From Nodosilinea sp. LEGE 07298 (lineage in GTDB: Bacteria; Cyanobacteriota; Cyanobacteriia; Phormidesmidales; Phormidesmidaceae): 36,805 nucleotides of DNA. Below are positions 16,600 through 25,169 of the stretch, piece by piece. Position numbers and translations under genes: made by a program. The first letter of the stretch is position 1. Each line of letters opens with the position of its first letter. Location: NCBI RefSeq assembly GCF_015207265.1, contig NZ_JADEXE010000034.1, positions 1 through 36,805 on the forward strand, given 5' to 3'. Under the pieces are notes generated by a model, which had not been told where the DNA came from, ran no database searches, and saw nothing but the letters and a program-made list of their open reading frames with translations.

Positions 16600-19596
16600 T
16601 TAGACACCGCTCAACTGCTGCTGGTAAAGGGTAAAGTAGCGCCCCTGGAGTTCCATCAGTTCGCTGTGGGTGCCTAGCTCTACCGCCGAGCCCTGATCCA
16701 TGACCAAAATTTGGTCGGCCTGCTGAATGGTGTTGAGCCGGTGGGTGATGAAGAACACCGTGCGGCCTTTGGCCCAAGCCTTAAGATTCACCGAGACCTG
16801 GTGCTCGGTGTCGTAGTCGAGGGCGCTGGTGGCTTCATCTAAAATCAGCAGGCGGGGGTTTTGCAGAATGGTGCGGGCGATCGCGATTCTTTGCCGCTGC
16901 CCCCCTGAGAGGGTCGAGCCTCGCTCGCCAACGCGGGTGTTGTAGCCCAGGGGCAAATCCATAATAAAGTCGTGGCAGCAGGCGGTTTTGGCCGCCTCAA
17001 TAATCACGCTGGCCTCGGCGTCGGGGTTGGTGAGCGAAATATTTTCCTGAATGGTGCCGTCAAACAGCAGGCTATCCTGAGGCACAATGCCAATCTGCCG
17101 CCGCAGCGAGTGCAGCTCGACTTTGCTGATGTCGTAGTGGTCAATTAAGATGCGACCCGACTCTAGCTCGTAGAGGCGAGGCAGCATCTTCATCAGGGTG
17201 CTCTTACCCGAGCCGCTCTGGCCCACCACGCCAATAAAGATGCCCGCCGGAAACTCCAGGCTAACGTTAGCCAGCTGCAGCGGCCCCGAGGGCGCAAAGC
17301 GAAAGGCCACATTCTCAAAGGTGACCTGCCCGGTGATCTCCGGCATGGGGATCTGATTGGCCTCGTCGGCGTCGGTCTCCTGGGGGTGGTCGATGATGTC
17401 AGACAGCCGCTCTAGCGACAGGGCTGTTTCCTGAAAGTTCTGCCACAGCTGGGCCAGGCGCAAAATCGGCGCGGTCACGTAGCCTGAGATAATTCGAAAG
17501 GCGATCAGCTGGCCCAGGGTAAGTTCGCCCTGCAGCACCAGGTAAGCGCCCACCCACAGCACCAGCAGGGCCGAGAGCTTGTTTAAAAAGTTACTGGCAC
17601 TGTTAGCGGTAGTGGAGGTCAGCACCGTGTTGAACCCAGCGCTGACGTACTCGGCGTAGCGCTCCTGCCACTTCCAGCGGGTGCGCAGCTCAATATTTTG
17701 CGCTTTCACAGTCTGAATGCCCGACAGCGACTCGACTAAGAGCGACTGAGTCGAGGCATTGCGCTCAGCTTTTACCCGCAGCTGCTTGCGCACCACTGGG
17801 GCCGCCAGCATAGTCACCAGCACAAACAGCGGAATCGTCGCCAGCGCTACCAGTGTCAGCAGCCAGCTATAGATGAACATCACAATGATGTACAACACTG
17901 AAAATATGGCGTCGAGCACCACCGTCAGGGCCGTACCGGTAAGAAAGGAGCGAATGTTCTCTAGCTCGTTGATACGGCTGGAGAGTTCGCCCACGGGGCG
18001 CTTGTCAAAGTAGCGCAGGGGCAATCGAAACAGGTGATCGATAATTTCTGACCCGAGGGCCATATCGATGCGGTTGGTGGTATCGACAAAGAGGTACGTG
18101 CGCAGGCTGGTGAGCACGGCCTCAAAGATGGCCACCACCACCAAGAACACGCCCAGCACCTGCAGGGTATCGACGCTGTTTTGCACAATCACGCGATCGA
18201 TGATCAGCTGCACCATCAGTGGGTTGGCCAGACCAAACAGCTGCACAAAAAACGAGGCTATAAAGACCTCAATCAGCACCCAGCGGTACTGTTTGATGGA
18301 GGGCCAAAACCACTGCAGGCCGAACTTTTGCTGGGGCGTTTCGCGGGTGGGCTCCAATAACAGGACTTCGCCCCCACTGCCGTCGCCAGCGCCCCAGGCC
18401 TCAGCAAAGCTCTCGGGGGTACGGCGAATAATCCCTACCTCGGGGTCGCCCAAGATGTACGCTTTCTCGGTGGTTTCGTAAACGACCGCAAAGCTTTCCT
18501 GCCAGCGAATTAAGCAGGGGGTATTGAGCCGACCAAAAGCACCCGTGGGCACCCGCACGAGCTGGGTTTTGAGGCCCATCATCTCGCTCACCGAGCCGCA
18601 GATCGGCAGCGATAGCTGCCCCATGCGCTCGTGCTGATTAGCCAAAATGCGGCGAATCACATCCTTGCGAAAGGGCATGGAGAAGTGCTGGCTAAGCATG
18701 TCGAAGCAGGCCAAAGCACCATCGACCTCGCCTCGGCCTCGCGCGAAGGGGTAGCTGCGACCAGGAGCTTTCTCCGCCGCTGAGGAGCCTTGAGCGCGAG
18801 GGGCTAAATCCGCCTCGGTGGCGTAGGGAATGTTGTTGACATCGAGCACTTCCACGGGGCGGGCAACGGCCTCGAGTTCTGGAGGCAGTGGCTCGGGCAG
18901 TGTTTCGGCCAGCACTGCCGGGGTCATCCCCAACACCCGCGCCCCTTGGGGGCTAAGCACTTCGACGGGGCGATCGAGCAGCAGCGTTGAGCCGACTGGG
19001 ATATTCAACACTGTCCCGCCGCTGAGCACCCAGGTGAGGGCCGCATCTAACTGGCTCAGGTTGTTGGGGCCGCTGGGCAAGGTGACGATCGCAGATTCGT
19101 CACAGACCGTTTGGGCTTTGGCCTTGAGATCGCCAACATCGAGGGCATGGGCCTTGGCGTGCTCGGCCACTAGGTCAAAGGCTTCGATCGCATAGACGCG
19201 ATCGCGCACCGCACTGCCAAATTCTGGGTACTCATCTAGCAGCCCCAGAAACATGTACGACGGCAGGGTAAGGGCCAGCACCTCGGTTGAGGCAATTACC
19301 GTTTCGCACGGCACACCGCGAATCAGGCTAATCACCCCCAGCATTTCGCCCCGACCGAAGCGTTTTAGGGTAACGGGCTGCTGAGTGCGCGGGTCGTAGC
19401 CGAGCAGGCGGGCCTGCCCTTCGAGCAGCACAATCACCTGCTGGGTTAACATCTCGCGCCGCAGCAGTGGCTGACCCAATCGGTACCGCAGAGGCTGAGC
19501 CGTTTGCAGCAGCTGTTGTAGCGCCTCAGGGGGCAAGCGATCAAAGGGCTCTAAGGTCTCAAAGGTTTGCTGAATCGAAAGCGACGTTTGGGTCAT
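16600..19596 (-). CDS. Type I secretion ABC exporter with CNBD-like and C39-like domains
   Basis: 998 residues from ATG 19596; a TTG two codons upstream is less likely. Domain order: cyclic-nucleotide-binding-like domain (about 15-145); linker (145-285); C39-peptidase-like domain (285-405); six-helix exporter core (about 430-720); ATPase (755-998) with Walker A GQSGSGKS (792-799), signature LSGGQ (896-900), Walker B RLLILDEA (915-922) and His952. In the C39-like domain the active-site segment reads GEVDGALACFDML, so the catalytic Cys position is occupied by Gly, and the His position before AVV is Phe; only the Asp of LGDP remains. It therefore should bind but not cleave cargo, like HlyB. Partner: HlyD adaptor downstream. 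Confidence 0.93.
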   Translation of the reverse strand: MTQTSLSIQQTFETLEPFDRLPPEALQQLLQTAQPLRYRLGQPLLRREMLTQQVIVLLEGQARLLGYDPRTQQPVTLKRFGRGEMLGVISLIRGVPCETVIASTEVLALTLPSYMFLGLLDEYPEFGSAVRDRVYAIEAFDLVAEHAKAHALDVGDLKAKAQTVCDESAIVTLPSGPNNLSQLDAALTWVLSGGTVLNIPVGSTLLLDRPVEVLSPQGARVLGMTPAVLAETLPEPLPPELEAVARPVEVLDVNNIPYATEADLAPRAQGSSAAEKAPGRSYPFARGRGEVDGALACFDMLSQHFSMPFRKDVIRRILANQHERMGQLSLPICGSVSEMMGLKTQLVRVPTGAFGRLNTPCLIRWQESFAVVYETTEKAYILGDPEVGIIRRTPESFAEAWGAGDGSGGEVLLLEPTRETPQQKFGLQWFWPSIKQYRWVLIEVFIASFFVQLFGLANPLMVQLIIDRVIVQNSVDTLQVLGVFLVVVAIFEAVLTSLRTYLFVDTTNRIDMALGSEIIDHLFRLPLRYFDKRPVGELSSRINELENIRSFLTGTALTVVLDAIFSVLYIIVMFIYSWLLTLVALATIPLFVLVTMLAAPVVRKQLRVKAERNASTQSLLVESLSGIQTVKAQNIELRTRWKWQERYAEYVSAGFNTVLTSTTANSASNFLNKLSALLVLWVGAYLVLQGELTLGQLIAFRIISGYVTAPILRLAQLWQNFQETALSLERLSDIIDHPQETDADEANQIPMPEITGQVTFENVAFRFAPSGPLQLANVSLEFPAGIFIGVVGQSGSGKSTLMKMLPRLYELESGRILIDHYDISKVELHSLRRQIGIVPQDSLLFDGTIQENISLTNPDAEASVIIEAAKTACCHDFIMDLPLGYNTRVGERGSTLSGGQRQRIAIARTILQNPRLLILDEATSALDYDTEHQVSVNLKAWAKGRTVFFITHRLNTIQQADQILVMDQGSAVELGTHSELMELQGRYFTLYQQQLSGV

Positions 19597-19734
19597 GGCC
19601 AAGGGGGTATGGACGCACGGTTAGGGGCAGCCGGGCATAGCTACATGCCAAAGCAGGAGCTTAGTATTCACCAGGTTTAATCAATACGCTCAGTGAACGA
19701 TAGTCAGATGCACTAAATCGATACACAACGTAAT

Positions 19735-20600: not shown

Positions 20601-21422
20601 CTACACGCCCGCCCGTCCGTAAATGCGGGCCGCCTGCTCGGGGCTGAGGCGGTTGGCACCAGGCCAGTGGGGCTGTGCCGGCTCAGAGAATGTTGGCAGG
20701 GCCACCGATGGGGCACCGGCCCCTGGTCTCATGGTGTCGTTAAACTCCAAGGAAAGCCCGCCGGGCTTAACCGGCTTAGCATTTTCCAGGTCGGTGTAGA
20801 TTTTGCTGTGGGGGGGTATAAAGGCTTTAGAATCCTCATCGTAGGCCAGGAGCTGAGCGGTGTCGAGCTGGTAGATCCAGCCGTGGATAGCTAGGGTGCC
20901 CGTGTGCAGCTTTGAGCGCACCGAAGGGTAAGTTTGCAAGTTATCGATCTGGGTGAGGACGTTTTGGGCCACCAGTAAATCGAGCTTTTCTTTCTTAGGT
21001 AGTTCACTATAGTGGTCTTCGACCAGCTTGCGGGTTGCTTCGGTATGGCGCAGCCAGTGGTAGACCAGGGGCATTTTTTCTTCCAGTTCGCCGATCTGCA
21101 GCAGCCCCTTCATCGCCCCGCATTGGGTGTGGCCGCAGACAATCACCTGGCGAATATCCAGGGCTTCCATGGCGTACTCGATGGTGGCCCCTTCACCGCC
21201 GTTGGTGGCCTCATAAGGGGGAATAATGTTGCCCGCATTGCGAATGATAAATAGATCGCCAATATCCGCCTGAGTAATGATGGTTGGATCTACCCGCGAA
21301 TCAGAGCAGCCGATGAACAACACTCTCGGGTGCTGACCTTTAGCTAACTGCTGAATCAGCTCCTGGTGGTCGGGAATGTAGTTTTCCTGAAACTCACGCA
21401 GACCTTGCAGCAGCTTTTCCAT
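20601..21422 (-). CDS. ccaA: Beta-carbonic anhydrase, carboxysomal CcaA type
   Basis: 273 residues from ATG 21422 (an in-frame TTG five codons upstream is less likely). It interconverts CO2 and bicarbonate, supplying CO2 to Rubisco inside beta-carboxysomes. Zinc and catalytic residues are Cys39 and Asp41/Arg43 in FIGCSDSRVDP, and His98 and Cys101 in VCGHTQCGAMKG. Beyond the catalytic domain a roughly 70-residue extension ends LSPEQAARIYGRAGV, which matches the tail I remember for Synechocystis CcaA; that tail is needed for binding CcmM. No ccm genes are adjacent, which is normal for ccaA. A single base separates its stop from that of the convergent lipoprotein gene. Confidence 0.93.
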   Translation of the reverse strand: MEKLLQGLREFQENYIPDHQELIQQLAKGQHPRVLFIGCSDSRVDPTIITQADIGDLFIIRNAGNIIPPYEATNGGEGATIEYAMEALDIRQVIVCGHTQCGAMKGLLQIGELEEKMPLVYHWLRHTEATRKLVEDHYSELPKKEKLDLLVAQNVLTQIDNLQTYPSVRSKLHTGTLAIHGWIYQLDTAQLLAYDEDSKAFIPPHSKIYTDLENAKPVKPGGLSLEFNDTMRPGAGAPSVALPTFSEPAQPHWPGANRLSPEQAARIYGRAGV

Positions 21423-21642
21423 GGGGCAACCAAACAATGGGATGGATAAAGAGCAGATCGCCGCCTGCTCCCGTATCTATTGTTATCCCATATCTAAGGC
21501 TCCGGCACGGCAAAGATTTACTTATCACAGCAATTACCGCTGCTTCTTAGCCGCCGCAGGACTGAAACGTCAAGGCTGGCCCCAATGCTGAGCCAAATCC
21601 CGATTTCGGCGCAATAATGAGCATAACGTTACAGCTCAGACT

Positions 21643-23140: not shown

Positions 23141-23443
23141 TTAGAACCCGGTGCGACGGTAGTTACCGCCGTTGCCGCCGCCTGCGCTGCTGCGGGCATC
23201 GTCGCGAGGGCGAGCCTTATTAACCCGCATTTCACGACCCATCCACTCAGCCCCATCAAGTGATTCGATGACGGTGTCTTCCTGAGTTTCAGCGGCCATA
23301 TCGACGAAGGCAAAGCCCCGAGGGCGACCGGTTTCGCGATCGGTGGGCAGGCTAACCCGCTTCACGTCGCCGTATTCAGCGAAAACCCGCTCCAGGTCTT
23401 CGCGCGTGACATCGTAGGACAAGTTACCAACATAGAGTGACAT
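23141..23443 (-). CDS. RRM-type RNA-binding protein (cyanobacterial Rbp)
   Basis: 100 residues from ATG 23443, with AAGGAG nine bases upstream, which rules out the longer TTG start. One RNA recognition motif with RNP2 LYVGNL (3-8) and RNP1 RGFAFVDM (42-49). A short glycine-rich tail (SAGGGNGGNYRRTGF) follows. Cyanobacterial Rbp proteins bind single-stranded RNA; several are cold-induced and some localise thylakoid mRNAs. A likely -10 element (TAAAAT) at about 23557-23562 on the minus strand would give a 5' leader of about 110 bases, which is in line with cold-regulated family members. Leader function is inference. Confidence 0.95.
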   Translation of the reverse strand: MSLYVGNLSYDVTREDLERVFAEYGDVKRVSLPTDRETGRPRGFAFVDMAAETQEDTVIESLDGAEWMGREMRVNKARPRDDARSSAGGGNGGNYRRTGF

Positions 23444-23612
23444 AGAGTTTGTCTCCTTACTGTACAAATGCAGCGAGTAAACGGAGACAAAGCTGTATCG
23501 AAAATCAAAGTGAAATGAAACAAGCGAAATCTACCGAAAACTGACCTCACCTATTTTAACACTCTAACTTTACCCATGGGGTGGTTAATGAGTTAGGTCA
23601 GAACAGTCGGGC

Positions 23613-23846
23613 TTAGGTGTCGTACATCAAGCCTTCGGGCGCTTCGGGATTTTCTTCTAGGTACTTATCAAAGCCAGTTTTTTTGGGTTTTTGGTGCTGG
23701 TGCGACACCTCAGCCCGCATCTCTTCAACCACATCCCAGGCGGCGGCAGCCTCAGAAGAGGTTTCACCCTTCTCTGAAGTGATCTGGTGGGCGTAGTCGA
23801 TCGCCTTTTGCAGCTCGTCTTGAAAGTCTTTGCTGTCAACACTCAT
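23613..23846 (-). CDS. CP12-family protein lacking all four regulatory cysteines
   Basis: 77 residues, normal CP12 length; GAGGAAG lies eight bases before ATG 23846. CP12 normally scaffolds GAPDH and phosphoribulokinase into an inactive complex in the dark, controlled by two disulfides. The core AWDVVEEM matches the CP12 signature AWDxVEEL, and the C-terminal FDKYLEENPEAPEGLMYD aligns with the usual YCxENPxxxEC(R/K)xYD. The translated protein has no cysteine: the first pair is replaced by Thr or Ile and Ala, the second by Leu and Gly. It may still bind GAPDH or PRK but cannot be switched by thioredoxin through its own disulfides. Reports of CP12 variants lacking one or both pairs exist; this is the extreme form. 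Confidence 0.88.
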   Translation of the reverse strand: MSVDSKDFQDELQKAIDYAHQITSEKGETSSEAAAAWDVVEEMRAEVSHQHQKPKKTGFDKYLEENPEAPEGLMYDT

Positions 23847-23950
23847 AATGGGCTTCCTCGTAGTTAGTTAATCTTCGAGATGAATAAGCTTATCTTACCC
23901 GGCTGGCGATCGCAGTCGTGCCCTGAACCATTGCCCCCTAAACAAAACCG

Positions 23951-24045: not shown

Positions 24046-24672
24046 TCAATGCTCAAACACCCCCTGGTACTGGAGCAAGTCGAGGGCGACAAAGGTAGGC
24101 AAACAGCGAAAACAGTCTTGGGCTATCTCCCACCGGCCCTCGCGCTTGAGCATGCCAGTTAAAGTCTGCTGAATGCTGTGCAGGTAGCGGACATCGTTGG
24201 CGGCGTAGCGGAGCTGCTCCTCGGAGAGGTTCATCGCGTTGCCCCAGTCCGAGCTTTGAGCCGTTTTGTCGAGTTCAATGCCCTCCAGTTCCCTGACCAA
24301 CTCTTTGAGGCCGTGGCGGGGGCTATAGGTGCGGCTGAGCTTGCTGGCAATTTTGCTGCAAAAGACTGGCGCAACGGTAATGCCCAGGTTGTGCTTGAGG
24401 GTAGCCAGGTCAAAGCGGGCAAAGTGAAACAACTTAAGAATCTCTGGGGCTTCTAGCAGTTCTTTGAGCAAGGGCGCTTCGGTTTGGCCTAGCTCGATGC
24501 GCACCACGCCCACATAGCCATCGGGGTCGGCGAGCTGCACCAGACAGAGGCGATCGCGCTGGGGCAGCAAGCCCATGGTCTCGGTGTCGCAGGCGATCGC
24601 ATCGGCCTGTTTATAGCGGGCCAGCAGATCGGGGGTAAGGTCGCGATCGCAGATTTCAAAACCGTCGGACAT
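24046..24672 (-). CDS. Ribonuclease D-like 3'-5' exonuclease
   Basis: 208 residues from ATG 24672 (AGGA eight bases upstream; starts further upstream would overlap DUF29). The DEDDy exonuclease motifs are present: Exo I IACDTETMGL, Exo II FHFARFDLATL and Exo III YAANDVRYL. The HRDC domain of classical RNase D is absent, as in many short cyanobacterial members. The expected role is trimming of tRNA or other structured RNA 3' ends. The DUF29 gene ends 8 bases before its start, so the two probably form an operon in which DUF29 is first. Confidence 0.9.
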   Translation of the reverse strand: MSDGFEICDRDLTPDLLARYKQADAIACDTETMGLLPQRDRLCLVQLADPDGYVGVVRIELGQTEAPLLKELLEAPEILKLFHFARFDLATLKHNLGITVAPVFCSKIASKLSRTYSPRHGLKELVRELEGIELDKTAQSSDWGNAMNLSEEQLRYAANDVRYLHSIQQTLTGMLKREGRWEIAQDCFRCLPTFVALDLLQYQGVFEH

Positions 24673-24680
24673 AGGAGTTC

Positions 24681-25169
24681 CTAAGCAATAGTTTCTGAGT
24701 CGGGTCGCCAGGGCAACCAATTATCATCAAGGGCTTGCTCCAGCGAGAAACAAGGACTTTCAGGAACTCGCTTAGCGTCTAGTTTGCTAACCTTAAGAAA
24801 CAACTTTCTACCTTTGATGTACTCATCGGAGTAGCGCTCCCTCAGCGAACTTCTCAGGCTGGGGCTGTCATCTAAAATTTCCTGGATCTCTTGGCGGAAA
24901 TTTTCAATTTCCCTATCCCAGCCAGAGAAGCACCGCTCGCGTTCAGTTTCCCAGTAGCTAAGCTTTAGCAGGTGCTCACAGAGACGTTTCAAGTAGCTAT
25001 TGAGTGATTTCTTATCACTTCTGCCCAAGCTTTCAAGTTCCTCAATTAGGTTCTCCAGGTCGATCGCATCAAAGTTACGAGATTTCAGATGAGCAACCGT
25101 ATTGTCTAGCCAAAGCTGGTAATCCCGGTCGTATAACGACTTGGGTTTGACATCAGTTTCGGTGCTCAT
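24681..25169 (-). CDS. DUF29-family protein
   Basis: 162 residues; ATG 25169 follows a strong AGGAGGAGG. The family features SLYDRDYQLWLDNTVAHLKS, DLENLIEELESLGR and the Trp/Arg-containing ERERCFSGWDREIENF make the assignment clear. The family is common in cyanobacteria, often in many copies; its function is not known to me. All-helical and highly charged. Here it lies 8 bases upstream of the RNase D start on the same strand, a coupled arrangement that does not by itself establish a shared function. Confidence 0.93.
   Translation of the reverse strand: MSTETDVKPKSLYDRDYQLWLDNTVAHLKSRNFDAIDLENLIEELESLGRSDKKSLNSYLKRLCEHLLKLSYWETERERCFSGWDREIENFRQEIQEILDDSPSLRSSLRERYSDEYIKGRKLFLKVSKLDAKRVPESPCFSLEQALDDNWLPWRPDSETIA

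Follow-up and report, generated by a model that had tools for sequence, protein, structure and literature searches.

A cysteine-free CP12 of Nodosilinea, under strong purifying selection, groups with CP12 proteins encoded in the hydrogenase operon

The window, i.e., the whole stretch of DNA that was analysed, comprises the 36,805 nucleotides of one contig (C342) of Nodosilinea sp. LEGE 07298, whose 7.25-Mb assembly of 617 contigs (G000) is rated 100% complete. It carries, on the minus strand, a small gene encoding a CP12 protein devoid of cysteine, here named CP12-0 after the class discussed below and flanked by genes for an exonuclease-like and an RNA-binding protein. The features of the locus are the following:

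23613–23846, minus strand: CP12-0 coding sequence, 77 amino acids and a stop, no cysteine
23853–23859, minus strand: Shine-Dalgarno-like GAGGAAG, read directly, six bases ahead of the CP12-0 ATG
23697–23834, minus strand: predicted two-helix hairpin, residues 5–50 (AlphaFold2 helices 5–26 and 31–50), the PRK-docking part in canonical CP12
23721–23741, minus strand: AWDVVEE core, residues 36–42, with W37, D38, E41 and E42 in 22/22 aligned sequences
23616–23675, minus strand: GAPDH-type tail, residues 58–77, with the Cys pair replaced by Leu63 and Gly72
24046–24720, minus strand: upstream neighbour, RNase-D-like 3'-5' exonuclease (Pfam PF01612, 134 bits)
23141–23467, minus strand: downstream neighbour, RRM RNA-binding protein (Pfam PF00076, 73 bits), adjoining CP12-0 in 16 of the 18 genomes with the gene at this type of locus

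The open reading frame begins with ATG and, as the original prediction had it, start site and ribosome-binding site are normal; AGGA-type motifs also precede the start in the orthologues of the genus. In a profile search, the protein matches the Pfam CP12 family (PF02672) with 82.5 bits and an E-value of 3.7e-23, for a cut-off of 22.7, which bears out its prediction as a CP12 homologue. CP12 is its sole Pfam domain; the CBS domain pair is absent and the protein therefore has no AMP site. Core and tail are as predicted, and the tail reads YLEENPEAPEGLMYD, with Leu73 at a position where relatives having the N-terminal cysteine pair (N pair) have Arg. The canonical cysteine positions are occupied by T23 and A33 for the N pair and by L63 and G72 for the C-terminal pair (C pair), so that the protein has, as anticipated, no thiol switch of its own.

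On the basis of N pair, C pair and AWD_VEE core, eight types of cyanobacterial CP12 have been distinguished, CBS fusions included, and a Leptolyngbya_CP12-0 is among those listed (PMC3906501, quoting Stanley et al. 2013, in excerpt). A cysteine-free CP12 is already a published class, and the absence of cysteine is not new as such. With neither pair and no CBS domain, the window protein fits the CP12-0 class, the definition of which is read from its name as quoted in the excerpt of PMC3906501, and it is the Nodosilinea orthologue of the class so defined. With canonical CP12 (PDB 6gfo; 56 bits to 6gfo_E) it shares AWD_VEE core, length and tail pattern, whereas both cysteine pairs of the latter are replaced. 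Its CP12 domain is similar to that of CBS-CP12 (PDB 5nmu, 5npl, 5nvd; 55.5 bits to 5nmu_A), but CBS domains and N pair are missing. The nearest relatives are stand-alone proteins with the N pair only (CP12-N), which are 61–72% identical to CP12-0. CP12-like genes are also carried by cyanophages (excerpt of PMC3906501); a phage origin of CP12-0 was considered and rejected, a phage collection having given no match at E 1e-3.

Whether the gene is a paralogue or the only copy had been left to a genome search. Four CP12 genes of G000, including that of the window, score above the Pfam cut-off, and no NCBIfam model matched any of them. One (on C366) encodes a canonical, four-Cys CP12, to which CP12-0 is about 42% identical; the two others (on C598 and C473) encode a CP12 domain with the C pair only, that of C473 having one extra Cys. 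CP12-0 is thus a paralogue, coexisting with canonical CP12 in its own genome. The sequence of a canonical CP12 was read in 21 of 25 Nodosilinea congeners, and a canonical copy is indicated by score in G011; none was detected in the three others (G007, G019 and G023), the assemblies of which are rated 96–99% complete. G019 carries a C-pair-only copy (L062). Upstream of each C-pair-only CP12 is an ORF (L003:1-1710 on C598 and L004:3-1707 on C473) that combines a flavin-reductase domain with a flavodoxin-like part, the latter falling under the Pfam cut-off in L004. This ORF resembles the end of a flavodiiron protein and is seen at 6/18 loci of this type, with short flanks.

A Cys-free CP12-0 orthologue is present in 24 of the 25 congeners searched, with an identity of 86–96% in 23 of them and of 73% in G019; none was found in G022, whose assembly is 87% complete. 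The best named match is that of Nodosilinea sp. LEGE 06152 (97%), and N. nodulosa PCC 7104 follows with 95%. Leptolyngbya was once a name of the latter strain, with which the contig label Lepto7104 fits. In an alignment of 22 rows found without any sequence pattern (A1), W37, D38, E41 and E42 of the core, Y62, P67, E71 and Y75 of the tail, and the HQHQ motif (H49–Q52) are invariant; HQHQ also occurs in L062 and L158 and is not exclusive to the clade. In a larger alignment (A2; 34 rows, partly found by the patterns WD[VA]VEEM or AE[VA]SHQHQ), the four cysteine positions of the 20 CP12-0 rows are occupied by T (S in one), A, L and G (A in one).

The median pairwise dN/dS of CP12-0 is 0.045 and its largest value 0.142 (24 distinct sequences; 239 of 276 pairs usable). 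The corresponding medians are 0.071 among 22 canonical CP12 sequences of the genus and 0.183 among 8 sequences with the C pair only. CP12-0 is thus under strong purifying selection and more constrained than the canonical copy. Cys-free orthologues in 24/25 congeners rule out a sequencing error for practical purposes; a pseudogene, in view also of the low dN/dS, is likewise rejected, and the prediction that the gene is not a pseudogene holds. Constraint is equal inside and outside a hydrogenase context, with a median dN/dS of 0.030 in 14 genomes lacking HoxH vs 0.034 in 7 genomes with the gene inside hox. Within the genomes without HoxH, dN/dS is 0.022 for residues 1–52 vs 0.069 for residues 53–77, the helical hairpin being the most constrained part. 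One further, metagenome assembly of Nodosilinea (L127:3001-3234) has an in-frame stop within the core motif of the CP12-0 frame.

In seven congeners (G001, G002, G006, G014, G015, G019 and G024), CP12-0 is encoded in the operon of the bidirectional [NiFe]-hydrogenase (hox), where its gene comes after hoxY, in the same orientation, and before hoxH; the hoxH of G006 lies on a different contig from CP12-0. CP12-N genes, found in related genera that are mostly of the same family, keep the N pair and lack the C pair, and 5/10 of them have the same place after hoxY and before hoxH. The gaps around CP12 between hoxY and hoxH measure from some tens of bases up to about 300. Curated NCBIfam models identify HoxE and HoxU; for HoxY and HoxH, the names follow from position and from Pfam family (NADH-oxidoreductase 20 kDa, nickel hydrogenase). 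Genes of CBS-CP12 size occupy the same place in the hox operon of Anabaena subtropica (L150), Nostoc parmelioides (L152), L206, L209 and L210, and both CBS and CP12 domains are detected by Pfam in L150. Reportedly, several CBS-CP12 gene neighbourhoods were described by Hackenberg and colleagues in 2018.

The association extends beyond the family of the window. HoxH is found in 86 genomes of a 386-genome sample of the phylum, and a CP12 match lies within 2 kb of HoxH in at least 21 of these 86, a lower bound obtained from 149 CP12 rows among the matches listed, the window's own row left out. Nineteen of the 21 are of CBS-CP12 size; in such counts, CBS-CP12 denotes a frame of the matching length, and L150 and L265 are the only ones with CBS domains confirmed by Pfam. 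One family (f28) supplies 16 of the 21 genomes, the rest coming from five other families. Within the window's family, neither CP12-0 nor CP12-N was seen at hoxH in 15 of 26 HoxH-bearing genomes, which indicates that the hydrogenase does not need CP12-0.

Among 163 distinct CP12 domains, 23 are hox-linked, and the two tail cysteines are present in 0/23 of these vs 85/140 of those not seen linked, "not linked" meaning that no Hox match lies within 2 kb inside the fetched stretch, which for many canonical loci extends about 0.8 kb to either side. No hox link was seen for any of the 66 canonical CP12s. HoxH searches brought in three of the 23 (L275, L290 and L305), and Fisher's p of 6e-9 is calculated as if related sequences were independent and should not be read as a probability. 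Given related sequences, a search-driven sample and short flanks, the lack of two tail cysteines in hox-linked CP12 has the value of a pattern, not of a test.

Two further groups of proteins were observed at hox loci. Stand-alone CP12s from three other families, encoded between hoxY and hoxH (L275:3021-3230) or within 0.9 kb of hoxH (L305:404-613 and L108:901-1125), lack the N pair and have a single tail Cys, so that no pair is possible within the chain; L088, which is the gene of L305, groups with L108, and the loss in L305 and L108 may be shared. Seven CBS proteins (L262, L263, L265, L266, L268, L269 and L274) have only a truncated CP12 remnant, from which the whole GAPDH-binding tail is absent and which falls just under the Pfam CP12 cut-off in L265. 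These seven were fetched by their HoxH match and are left out of the tree and of the linkage counts.

In the literature on CP12 with hox or hydrogenase, covered through titles, the openings of abstracts and excerpts, and with Stanley et al. 2013 and Hackenberg et al. 2018 outside its scope, no stated hox link was found. In the excerpts of PMC7281370, PMC9514657, PMC9623430, PMC13101868 and PMC3610870, CP12 and hox words co-occur by chance or in reference lists. A hydrogenase survey (PMC5186783) contains no mention of CP12, nor of CBS in its main text. The hox cluster of Nodularia spumigena has no extra ORF according to the excerpt of PMC3610870, and other ORFs are listed for two Lyngbya hox clusters, also in excerpt. 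Within this same scope, the probable descent from the hydrogenase operon and survival where the hydrogenase is absent are the part of our analysis that was not found stated.

The CP12-0 of the window belongs to a clade with hox-encoded CP12s, yet its own gene lies outside hox, as in 18 genomes including that of the window. An RNase-D-like exonuclease gene adjoins it in all 18. HoxH is absent from 14 of the 18, the window's genome included, and located elsewhere in four; searches of G000 gave neither a HoxH nor a HoxU match, and the same holds for the two contigs of G009. The exonuclease locus is without CP12, within the flanks fetched, in 10/10 hox-type or outgroup genomes, and trpB is still near it in 8/10 of these. 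As CP12-0 seems to have moved there, its present neighbours, exonuclease and RRM protein, are not used as a guide to function.

A tree from which the four cysteine columns were removed groups the 24 CP12-0 and 10 CP12-N rows as one clade (support 100/95). Inside it, CP12-0 is monophyletic (91/68) and CP12-N forms a weak sister group (78/45) rather than an ancestral grade. The tree is built on 67 columns, its bootstrap is not settled, and three canonical rows are misplaced with respect to its best branch. It includes 110 of 140 rows, with 45 of the 66 canonical ones; the C-pair-only type and 14 further rows, namely divergent CBS-CP12s and single-Cys CP12s such as L088 and L108, were omitted. 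For tree, dN/dS and linkage counts alike, CP12 stretches of fewer than 62 residues (including L127) were left out and identical domains merged. A grouping of CP12-0 with canonical CP12 to the exclusion of CP12-N is disfavoured, with a log-likelihood 38 lower and an AU p of 0.037, a modest value for a grouping that was named after the first tree was seen. The tree by itself does not discriminate between a position of the whole clade nearer to CBS-CP12 and one nearer to canonical CP12 (AU p 0.377).

As the N pair is present in most CBS-CP12s, in canonical CP12 and in CP12-N, CP12-0 probably arose, by parsimony, by loss of this pair. Parsimony likewise suggests that the clade of CP12-0 and CP12-N arose inside hox and that CP12-0 later moved out. 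The stand-alone genes may descend from CBS-CP12 via loss of the CBS domains, the main argument being the place in the hox operon that is common to both.

The AlphaFold2 model of CP12-0 has a mean pLDDT of 73.7 and a pTM of 0.48, with blocks at pLDDT 84–89 over residues 11–40, a confidence that is moderate and says nothing on the missing disulfide. Foldseek with this model gives no match reaching E 0.001. Its top rank is the CP12 of the cyanobacterial GAPDH complex 6gfo (E 4e-3), a local fit only, with an rmsd of 11–13 Å, and the predicted hairpin superposes on CBS-CP12 5npl at 0.5 Å over 43 columns (E 0.08).

The premise of the original prediction that sequestration of GAPDH and PRK depends on the disulfides is too strong, as S. 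elongatus PCC 7942 and Galdieria make the ternary complex with CP12s that lack the N pair (PMC9406205, in excerpt). Losing the C pair does more harm in Synechocystis, where this pair matters more than the N pair for the use of glucose (excerpts of PMC9514657 and PMC9623430). PRK binding is poor in a mutant that lacks the N disulfide (PMC9406205, same excerpt), a four-Cys-to-Ala mutant of Synechocystis CP12 is deletion-like on glucose (PMC9514657, excerpt), and a four-Cys-to-Ser variant restores growth only in part (PMC9623430, excerpt); unlike CP12-0, these mutant proteins did not evolve without cysteine. CBS-CP12 inhibits PRK without a ternary complex (excerpts of PMC9514657, PMC9406205 and PMC9623430). 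The C-terminal pair of PRK itself gates complex formation (PMC9199185, excerpt), and both Cys pairs, four residues in all, are retained in the PRK of G000.

The explanation that we favour, with due reserve, is that CP12-0 could well be a redox-insensitive ligand of phosphoribulokinase (PRK). It would bind PRK via the hairpin and the AWD_VEE core with no disulfide of its own, and would not assemble the canonical GAPDH complex. PRK would then be limited by CP12-0 independently of thioredoxin, control resting with expression and the Cys pairs of PRK. In hox-bearing relatives, co-expression with the hydrogenase might block the formation of RuBP when cells are dark and poor in oxygen, a situation in which canonical CP12 would be set free by high NADPH and reduced thioredoxin. 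High NADPH and reduced thioredoxin would dissolve the canonical complex (PMC9623430, excerpt), and hox is up-regulated in micro-oxic Synechocystis (excerpt of PMC11368403). Several points limit this explanation, among them the disorder of reduced canonical CP12, the behaviour of the cysteine mutants, the moderate confidence of the model and the HoxH-bearing genomes with neither CP12-0 nor CP12-N seen at hoxH. The conservation of the tail (Y62, P67, E71, Y75) argues against a pure PRK ligand, which would not need it; and the absence of HoxH from 14 of the 18 genomes with a relocated gene implies that a role in dark anoxia cannot be the whole of the present function.

A more elaborate scenario, which is possible but which we hold only tentatively, is that a second brake of the Calvin cycle, without the GAPDH-docking switch, evolved inside the hydrogenase operon, from an AMP-sensing CBS-CP12 through an N-pair-only CP12 to CP12-0. 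It would hold PRK inactive when cells are dark, poor in oxygen and highly reduced, a state in which the disulfide brake would give way, and would tie the shut-off of the carbon cycle to hydrogen production; in Nodosilinea, the brake would have outlived the hydrogenase and become a general, redox-blind regulator.

CP12-0 could alternatively compete with canonical CP12, occupying PRK (or GAPDH) with no ternary complex, thus loosening the dark complex and keeping some Calvin-cycle flux available. The co-occurrence of a four-Cys CP12 in its own genome and in most congeners, and the retention of the docking residues but not of the switches, are consistent with this; however, there would be nothing to compete with in G007, G019 and G023, unless the drafts miss their canonical CP12, and we consider such a competition unlikely. 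It is rather improbable that the hox-operon CP12 serves as a hydrogenase accessory, helping or regulating HoxYH or the diaphorase HoxEFU, even if its gene has hoxY and hoxH on either side, in the same orientation, and CP12-type genes are hox-linked in other families too. The median dN/dS of 0.030 in the 14 HoxH-less genomes means that this cannot be the only function, equal constraint without HoxH excluding a role in the hydrogenase alone for today's CP12-0, and 15 of the 26 HoxH genomes of the family have neither CP12-0 nor CP12-N at hoxH. That the Cys-free hairpin is reused for a new partner outside the Calvin cycle seems doubtful: the strong constraint in a new neighbourhood where HoxH is absent and the HQHQ motif in 22/22 rows, although not exclusive to the clade, would fit, but W37, D38, E41, E42 and Y75 of core and tail, unchanged in 22/22, suggest the old partner. 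Finally, a permanently reduced-like, disordered CP12 in a "locked" state without binding function, or a decaying gene, is most improbable, since against the disorder of reduced canonical CP12 (PMC9406205, excerpt) and the in-frame stop of L127 stand a median dN/dS of about 0.03–0.05, below that of canonical CP12, and an intact CP12-0 in 24/25 congeners.

For photosynthetic carbon fixation, CP12 is the textbook example of a disulfide switch. A clade that lacks both switches, and is more constrained than the canonical protein, provides a natural test of CP12 minus redox control. The likely origin in the hox operon leads to the hypothesis that some little-studied CP12 variants serve dark, oxygen-poor metabolism and not only the light/dark switch.

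Two other genes of the window may be mentioned. A beta-type carbonic anhydrase (Pfam PF00484) is encoded at 20601–21437, about 2.2 kb from CP12-0, and is also present in both related loci with long flanks (L223 and L224). A 1000-amino-acid ORF at 16600–19602 is, by eye, ABC exporter-like with extra N-terminal domains.
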